Assembly: GCF_026616195.1 (NCBI RefSeq) | Contig: NZ_JANHDH010000001.1 | Span: forward strand, 1,240,001 to 1,304,000 | Reading direction: 5' to 3' | Source of the DNA: Haloarchaeobius amylolyticus | Lineage (GTDB): Archaea; Halobacteriota; Halobacteria; Halobacteriales; Natrialbaceae | DNA: 64,000 nucleotides | Shown: positions 18,130-32,467 of the stretch, piece by piece | Position numbering within the stretch: the first letter of the stretch is position 1 | Layout of the letters: each line of letters begins with the position of its first letter | Notes under the pieces: model-generated | What the model was told of the DNA's origin: nothing | Database searches by the model: none | The model's input: only the letters and a program-made list of their open reading frames with translations | Made by a program: the position numbers and the translations under genes

Positions 18130-18375
18130 CTACCGGCCGGACGGCATCGCCTGGTTCGCCTCGTCCGTGGTGTTCGTGAGCCGGTCCGTCCCGGTCCGGT
18201 CGAAGCTCCGCTGGCAGCGCGCGACCCAGTCGCCCGGGTCGTCGCTGGGGGTCGCGTCGGCCCTCCCGTCGCGCTCTTCCGGTTCCGTGGCGGCCGGCGC
18301 GCTGTCAGGTGTGTTCGTCGGCTGGTCTGCCGTGGGGCGGTACTGCTGGGTCGCGGCGTGTGTATCGGTTCTCAT
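18130..18375 (-). CDS. Small haloarchaeal protein of unknown function, copy 1
   Basis: 81 residues from ATG 18375. The N-terminal 49 are Thr/Pro/Asp-rich and probably disordered. The C-terminal 32 carry a conserved core (W-A-CQ, FD, RL-N-TD, N-AM-G) that matches the product at 32114-32341 in 16 of 32 positions. Its start codon overlaps the stop of an upstream frame as ATGA, exactly as in the second copy. A longer frame runs to 18489, but the shared 25-bp promoter block lies in that stretch, which argues against the longer start. Function unknown; no signal peptide or membrane segment. Confidence 0.6.
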   Translation of the reverse strand: MRTDTHAATQQYRPTADQPTNTPDSAPAATEPEERDGRADATPSDDPGDWVARCQRSFDRTGTDRLTNTTDEANQAMPSGR

Positions 18376-18461
18376 ACGGGTCGTGTCGACGGTCGGCGGT
18401 CGGGTGGTCGGAGAGCGGCGCTGGGACGGAGAACGAGTCAGCGGTGTACCCGTACGAGCAT
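18372..18461 (-). other. Upstream leader frame of copy 1, interrupted by a stop
   Basis: An ATG at 18461 lies about 30 bp after the TATA-like core of the promoter, where a leaderless message would begin. The frame reads MLVRVHR and then meets TGA. If that stop is ignored it stays open for 29 codons and ends in the ATGA overlap with the main gene at 18375. The homologous frame of copy 2 (32338-32424) is intact. Either this copy is decayed, or only the seven-residue leader is used here. Confidence 0.4.
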
Positions 18462-18480: not shown

Positions 18481-18505
18481 CCAATCCATAATAAAAGTTC
18501 ATGTT
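18481..18505 (-). promoter_or_regulatory. Conserved 25-bp promoter block, copy 1
   Basis: On the minus strand it reads AACATGAAC, a TTTTATTA TATA-like core, then GGATTGG. It matches the block at 32443-32467 in 22 of 25 bases, with the same spacing to the leader ATG (20 versus 19 bp). The TATA core lies about 30 bp before that ATG. The conserved AACATGAA upstream of the core occupies the expected BRE position and may also be an activator site. Confidence 0.6.
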
Positions 18506-18643: not shown

Positions 18644-18931
18644 GTGAGCGAAGAAACACAGGAGCGGCGGAACCTCCGCATGCCCAACAAAGACGAGCTT
18701 TTCGCGGTAGTCACAGAACACAACGGCGGCAACCACGTCCGCGTCCAGTGCGAGGACGGTGTCAGCCGAATGGGCCGAATCCCCGGCCGAATGAAGTACC
18801 GCACGTGGATCAACGAGGGCGACGTCGTCCTCGTCGAACCGTGGGACTGGCAGGACGAGAAGGCGAACATCGAGTGGCGCTACACCGGCCAGGACGCCGA
18901 CCAGCTCCGCCGCGAAGGCCACATCCAGTAA
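18644..18931 (+). CDS. eif1A: Translation initiation factor aIF1A
   Basis: Archaeal counterpart of eIF1A/bacterial IF1. It binds the ribosomal A site, helping mRNA scanning and start selection. 95 residues, typical length. The OB-fold core runs from [18 protein letters not shown] through [19 protein letters not shown] to VVLVEPWDW, which match the eIF1A family closely. The basic N-terminus and acidic C-terminus are usual. GTG is the start; it is the only one that gives the family N-terminus. Single gene under its own promoter. Confidence 0.96.
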
Positions 18932-32113: not shown

Positions 32114-32341
32114 TCAGAGACCGTCGTGCATCGCCTCGTTCTCGTCGTCGGTGAGGTTCTTGAGGCGACCGCTGTCGGTGGTGTCGAACTGCTGCTGGCA
32201 GAGCGCGGTCCAGGAGACGTCGGTGGGCGGCGACTCACTGCCGGTGGTGGTCGTGGGCTCGGGCCGGGAGAAGTCGGTCGGCTCGTCGATTCGTGGGTTC
32301 GTGCGTCGGGTCTCGGGCGTGGCGTCGGGACGTGTGCTCAT
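32114..32341 (-). CDS. Small haloarchaeal protein of unknown function, copy 2
   Basis: 75 residues; disordered, Thr/Pro-rich N-terminus and a conserved C-terminal core (WTALCQ, FD, GRL-N-TDDENEAM) shared with the copy at 18130-18375. No membrane segment, signal or known motif; the shared Cys may be functional. ATG overlaps the stop of an upstream 28-codon frame (ATGA). The gene lies between the subtilase and a shared promoter block, in the same orientation as the subtilase. Confidence 0.65.
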   Translation of the reverse strand: MSTRPDATPETRRTNPRIDEPTDFSRPEPTTTTGSESPPTDVSWTALCQQQFDTTDSGRLKNLTDDENEAMHDGL

Positions 32342-32424
32342 GTGATGCGTCGTGTGGGTGGTGTGGTCGGGTACTGGCGTTCTGTCGGGGGTCGGACCGC
32401 GCGTGCTGCGAGTACGTGAAGCAT
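32338..32424 (-). CDS. Upstream leader peptide, coupled to copy 2
   Basis: An intact 28-codon frame from ATG 32424 to a TGA that overlaps the next ATG as ATGA. The product begins MLHVLAARAVRP and is basic and Pro/Thr-rich. Its ATG is about 30 bp after the TATA core, consistent with a leaderless start at the leader rather than at the main gene. Codon pattern alone would not support it. The matching frame and ATGA overlap at the other copy are the reason to believe it. Confidence 0.45.
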   Translation of the reverse strand: MLHVLAARAVRPPTERQYPTTPPTRRIT

Positions 32425-32442: not shown

Positions 32443-32467
32443 CCAATCTATCATAAATGTTCATGTT
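32443..32467 (-). promoter_or_regulatory. Conserved 25-bp promoter block, copy 2
   Basis: 22 of 25 bases match 18481-18505. On the minus strand: AACATGAAC, ATTTATGATA as TATA-like core, then GATTGG. The gap on to the E1-alpha start at 32540 on the other strand holds nothing else certain. Confidence 0.6.

Follow-up and report, generated by a model that had tools for sequence, protein, structure and literature searches.

Haloarchaeal mRNAs are mostly leaderless and are therefore thought to make little use of control through the 5′ untranslated region (UTR). In bacteria, translational attenuators such as the erm-type leaders combine a helix over the next start with a leader ORF that is very short and marked by distinctive codons or residues. 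Coupling between neighboring ORFs has been described in H. volcanii, where −4 overlaps are the commonest type of gene pair and reinitiation is abolished at a gap of 22 nt (PMC10666635); of 14 overlapping gene pairs examined across H. volcanii and E. coli, 13 showed coupling (PMC6728339). Small upstream ORFs (uORFs) have also been listed for H. volcanii, with 15 to 31 amino acids in UTRs of 150 to 250 nt (Babski et al. 2016, PMC4983044), and a message is taken as leaderless when its 5′ UTR is up to 5 nt (PMC4983044).

A stretch of 64,000 nt from Haloarchaeobius amylolyticus (the window) carries two small genes, here called locus A and locus B, each preceded by a short leader ORF that, judging from the sequence, probably couples to the main protein's translation and may gate it. 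The following features were identified at locus A:

32443 to 32465, minus strand: promoter block CATGAACATTTATGATAGATTGG (BRE/TATA), gene-specific, 23 nt
32338 to 32424, minus strand: leader ORF, long form, 28 codons, translated as MLHVLAARAVRPPTERQYPTTPPTRRIT followed by a stop
32413 to 32415, minus strand: rare valine codon GTA, codon 4 of the leader
32338 to 32341, minus strand: ATGA, the main start ATG sharing bases with the leader stop TGA
32114 to 32341, minus strand: main small protein, 75 amino acids, without a curated family

The corresponding features of locus B, together with its divergent neighbor, were as follows:

18481 to 18503, minus strand: promoter block CATGAACTTTTATTATGGATTGG
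18438 to 18461, minus strand: leader ORF, short form, 7 codons (MLVRVHR, then a stop), of which the third and fifth are GTA
18448 to 18458, minus strand: helix arm 1, CUCGUACGGGU, inside the leader ORF, 11 bp
18371 to 18381, minus strand: helix arm 2, ACCCGUAUGAG, over the main AUG
18130 to 18375, minus strand: main small protein, 81 amino acids, paralog of that at locus A
18644 to 18931, plus strand: aIF1A gene (Pfam PF01176), divergent from locus B

At locus A, the leader ATG lies 18 nt past the promoter block (32465-32443), and translation of 32424-32338 on the minus strand gave the 28-codon frame reported in the preliminary description, its TGA overlapping the main ATG. The stop and start thus overlap by −4 nt, which, with −1 nt, is the spacing that marks a termination-reinitiation pair. 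A lone frame of 28 codons ending in an ATGA overlap carries no significance by itself; by our own estimate its chance is ~15% (~1/3 for the frame and ~1/2 for staying open), and the significance comes from the relatives rather than from locus A alone. All 7 copies of locus A from Haloarchaeobius and a sister genus preserve both the frame and the −4 overlap, with leaders of 28, 29, or 34 codons. Locus A is neighbored by a subtilase gene (PF00082; 30624-31982, minus strand) and a gene for a dehydrogenase E1 component (PF00676; 32540-33643, plus strand), neither of which, as far as seen, accompanies the small gene as a conserved partner.

The 29-codon frame previously claimed for locus B proved to be a misreading across a stop codon. 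Positions 18461-18372 on the minus strand translate as MLVRVHR, a stop, and LVLRP..., the in-frame TGA at codon 8 leaving 7 codons and lying 62 nt upstream of the main ATG. This stop rules out a conserved leader of 28 to 29 codons in both paralogs, and neither length nor overlap is kept between them. Both peptides do start with ML as described, but the one at locus B is not Pro-rich. The 62-nt gap exceeds the limit for reinitiation, set at below ~20 nt, and an 11-bp helix pairs CUCGUACGGGU inside the leader with ACCCGUAUGAG (p = 0.010 against shuffles). A short form like that of locus B was also found in a congener (L014/L027). The two small proteins are paralogs, as had been proposed (35% identity; E value, 4e−10).

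The position of the gene for initiation factor aIF1A beside the small gene recurs in other genera, in several Natrialbaceae and Halobacteriaceae, which suggests that this linkage is old. The aIF1A-adjacent copy has the short form in Haloarchaeobius and Natrialbaceae and the long form in Halobacteriaceae. As a clue to the role of the main protein, the repeated adjacency is only a hint. Many small-gene copies in Natrialbaceae adjoin a glycosyltransferase-like gene (“DVSFVVPARNEADYL”) instead (L028, L032, L033, L037, L038, L044-L046, L048-L050, L122-L124, and L131).

Promoter block, conservation, and predicted transcript start

The promoter block said to be shared by the two loci was recovered at both, with two occurrences in the window against 0.00 expected from window shuffles, and these were the only two genome-wide at up to 3 mismatches. 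It was present in 42 of 125 genomes of the family and 126 of 392 of the order, while a reversed-pattern control matched a handful of genomes only. Using a stricter pattern (the block plus the following ATG), 17 contigs were matched in a named genome collection, all of them haloarchaeal. Across Halobacteriales, the same architecture was seen, in which the block is followed 15 to 22 nt on by an ATG, a short ORF, and a small main ORF. It was present in dozens of genera from Natrialbaceae, Haloarculaceae, Haloferacaceae, Halobacteriaceae, and one further family, the family names of relatives being less certain where a family had no named contig. In three Haloarculaceae loci (L107, L108, and L110), the block stands before small ORFs whose sequence appears to be different (e.g., MIDETSLSDDAPLVPEL...), and no leader ORF of this type is present. 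One Natrialbaceae copy (L031, 1501-1560) has lost the leader ORF, and its main ATG lies 31 nt after the block.

The main ORFs encode 39 to 122 amino acids and often end in F...RLxNLxDxxNxA, the F, R, N, D, and N positions being invariant in the family. Searches of Pfam, NCBIfam, and PDB with the main ORF returned nothing above cutoff, and a single weak match to a PHROGs family of unknown function was obtained (E value, 0.09). No relevant RNA element was identified in Rfam for seven representative loci. Across 12 genomes of Natrialbaceae and Haloferax, the Natrialbaceae leader motif matched no more than once in each, giving no sign of a wider regulon within one genome, and at that stringency the matches were confined to Natrialbaceae.

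A TTTAT begins about 31 to 36 nt upstream of most leader ATGs, and in ordinary genes of this genome the distance from TTTAT to the start peaks at 28 to 31 nt. This TATA spacing places the predicted transcript start about 0 to 6 nt before the leader ATG, compared with the 0 to 5 nt of a leaderless message. The promoter is placed for the leader ATG and not for the main ATG, which bears on whether the leader could be a chance ORF in an untranslated 5′ UTR, with the main ORF initiated independently, either on a separate transcript or in the usual leadered way. Haloarchaeal leadered initiation without a Shine-Dalgarno sequence is possible according to the literature, and the ~15% chance of a frame such as that at locus A also speaks for this explanation. 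With the same architecture, locked phase, and GTA codons repeated in dozens of genera, however, we regard it as very unlikely.

Signs of translation in the leader

Leader ORFs were collected from 108 loci, of which 50 were non-redundant after similar leaders were removed. Within leader nucleotides 3 to 36, the tetranucleotide GTAC fell in the phase of the leader ATG in 131 of 131 cases (59 of 59 in the non-redundant set), compared with 3/1/3 by phase in a control stretch further downstream. The first GTA was offset by 6, 9, 12, 15, 18, or 21 nt, all multiples of 3. GTA made up about 80% of the valine codons in non-redundant leaders (77 of 96), compared with 1.6% over the whole genome and 5.5% within codons 2 to 11 of ordinary genes, and was not used for any of the 60 valine codons of the corresponding main ORFs. 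Other A-ending codons, such as CGA, CTA, and TCA, were not enriched in leaders relative to codons 2 to 11. The GTA valines often stand in a V-x-V-R context that recurs at the leader N terminus across families. Both the long and the short leader forms carry the GTA signature, which is thus not explained by the helix described below.

The frame itself is also maintained. The start codon was ATG throughout, except for one GTG (L088). In Haloarcula, the −4 overlap was kept in 28 of 30 loci through leaders of 27, 28, 29, 31, and 32 codons, with the exceptions L203 and L204; since the leaders share descent, such counts do not represent separate events, yet any tree would require several changes of length that keep the frame. 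Selection at the peptide level was weak, with frame-0 pN/pS of 0.65 in Haloarcula and about 1.1 in Haloarchaeobius. Among the tRNAs examined (most, not all, of 50 predicted), one gene for tRNA-Val(UAC) was identified.

These observations bear on two further explanations. In one, the GTAC stretch is a nucleotide element only, a site bound by a protein, as an operator or an RNA motif, immediately past the transcript start, and the frame is incidental. Strong nucleotide conservation in Natrialbaceae (GTACAGATGTCGGTCGTACACGTA), the palindromic appearance of CGTACGCGTACG in Haloferax, and the weak peptide-level selection all fit such an element. A binding site would nevertheless need no particular phase, and every GTAC lies in the ATG frame at offsets in steps of 3; the start codon is kept, and long-form frames stay open despite in-frame length changes, which makes a purely nucleotide element unlikely. 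In the other, function resides in the leader peptide itself, which would act in trans or bind the main protein. The recurrence of the V-x-V-R N terminus across families would agree with this, but the leaders range from 7 to 62 codons, their remaining sequence is unrelated between lineages, and 7 to 8 residues is very short for a product. The pN/pS values do not favor a functional peptide, since the peptide is not clearly conserved as a product, and the GTA codon is kept more strictly than the pattern of residues would require. We consider a peptide product quite unlikely.

Given that GTAC phase, GTA codon choice, and upkeep of the frame agree, we infer from sequence comparison that the leader is probably translated. 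The proposal in the preliminary description of a translated leader controlling the main protein was thus borne out in part. The GTA codons standing in frame across 108 leaders and the conserved coupling geometry point to it, whereas the reason originally given, that length and overlap are kept, does not stand. Across homologs, the check that had been suggested, the frame was conserved but its length was not.

Long and short leader forms

In most loci, the main AUG lies 70 to 95 nt from the leader AUG, and leaders take two main forms, which are alternatives. The long form, seen in locus A, its sister copies, Haloarcula, and some Halobacteriaceae, has 24 to 34 codons and a −4 overlap (ATGA or GTGA) with the main start. 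The short form, seen in locus B, most Natrialbaceae, and Haloferax, has 7 to 14 codons and a stop 41 to 104 nt upstream of the main start; both forms are present in Halobacteriaceae. Distances from leader to main start were nearly all 2 mod 3 for the long form and were distributed 19/18/13 by phase for the short form. Several leaders have another geometry, their overlap with the main start exceeding 4 nt and reaching tens of nucleotides in some (L028, L036, L037, L111, and L123/L124). With a gap of at least 41 nt, short-form leaders end too far from the main start for reinitiation, given that 22 nt abolishes it in H. volcanii.

As a class, short-form leaders are predicted to pair with the main start or its vicinity. 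Energies from RNAduplex, in which internal loops are allowed, told little (median z, −1.2); in their place, gapless helices were tested against shuffles, against partners swapped between lineages, and against the interior of the main ORF. By this test, short-form leaders carry lineage-specific gapless helices of 8 to 11 bp that join the leader ORF to the main start or to the region upstream of it (Fisher p = 2e−10 against shuffles). Individually, 12 of 26 leaders reached p < 0.05 and the helix was not significant in the other 14; in some, the best partner lay 30 to 45 nt upstream of the main start rather than at the start itself. For the long form, the combined test gave a Fisher value of 1.0, and none of 16 leaders was significant (p = 0.001 for 12/26 versus 0/16). 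A single helix for all leaders was ruled out, as the long form has none. When partners were swapped between lineages, the true partner was better (fraction, 0.21; 0.5 expected), which indicates that the helix arms covary. The short-form helix also exceeded the main-ORF interior control (p = 0.003), whereas long-form leaders paired less than that control, and long-form leader RNA was less paired than shuffles at locus A (z, +2.2) and in one Haloarcula leader (z, +2.1). In Natrialbaceae the helix pairs AUGUCGGUCG with CGACCGACAU, and helices in two other lineages (L091 and L096) pair UCGUAUGCUG with CAGCAUACGA and CAUCGUAGC with GCUACGAUG.

A conserved stretch, approximately GTAyCGC..tTCGAC, was also observed about 20 nt past the short-form leader stop. 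It is unexplained by the main helix and pairs with the leader ATG region in L116, L121, and L135.

We consider it probable that a conserved leaderless uORF links the passage of ribosomes at the mRNA 5′ end to translation of the small downstream protein, by reinitiation or by helix opening. A ribosome would load on the leader AUG, at or a few nucleotides from the transcript start, and would then read an N-terminal stretch containing rare GUA valine codons. In the long form, it would terminate at the stop overlapping the main AUG and reinitiate there; in the short form, the helix would sequester the main start until melted by the leader ribosome. We infer that translation of the leader would turn the main ORF on, with the GUA codons as a putative regulated pause. 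It is possible, though doubtful, that the system is an archaeal translational attenuator, in which the GUA codons of the leaderless leader would sense charged tRNA-Val(UAC) or general elongation speed and set expression of the small protein, the one encoded next to aIF1A in several genera, the output being switchable between helix opening and termination-reinitiation over evolution.

Comparison with known systems

If this coupling is true, an order-wide leaderless micro-ORF would show how leaderless mRNAs can still be translationally regulated. Related genes would couple by reinitiation or by a long-range helix depending on lineage, a natural experiment in which Haloferax and Haloarcula could be compared, and the GTA codon signature offers a concrete sensor hypothesis.

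The long form, including locus A, resembles the ATGA/GTGA termination-reinitiation pairs of H. volcanii (Huber et al. 2019, PMC6728339; 2023, PMC10666635) in its −4 overlap, with no scanning over a distance. Those pairs consist of ordinary genes, whereas the upstream partner here is a conserved, leaderless, rare-codon micro-ORF. The short form is like known coupling in which the downstream start region pairs with the upstream ORF and should be freed by ribosomes on it, but its upstream ORF has only 7 to 14 codons, is leaderless and archaeal, and has a helix partner that varies by lineage. As small ORFs upstream of haloarchaeal genes, the leaders are comparable to the uORFs of H. volcanii (Babski et al. 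2016); they differ in beginning at about the transcript start, in lying within leaders of mostly 70 to 130 nt, and in having often 7 to 14 codons. The short leaders share with the erm-type attenuators a very short ORF, distinctive codons, and a helix over the next start, and are set apart from them by their archaeal host, a main start at which no Shine-Dalgarno sequence was seen, and the lack of a known inducer.
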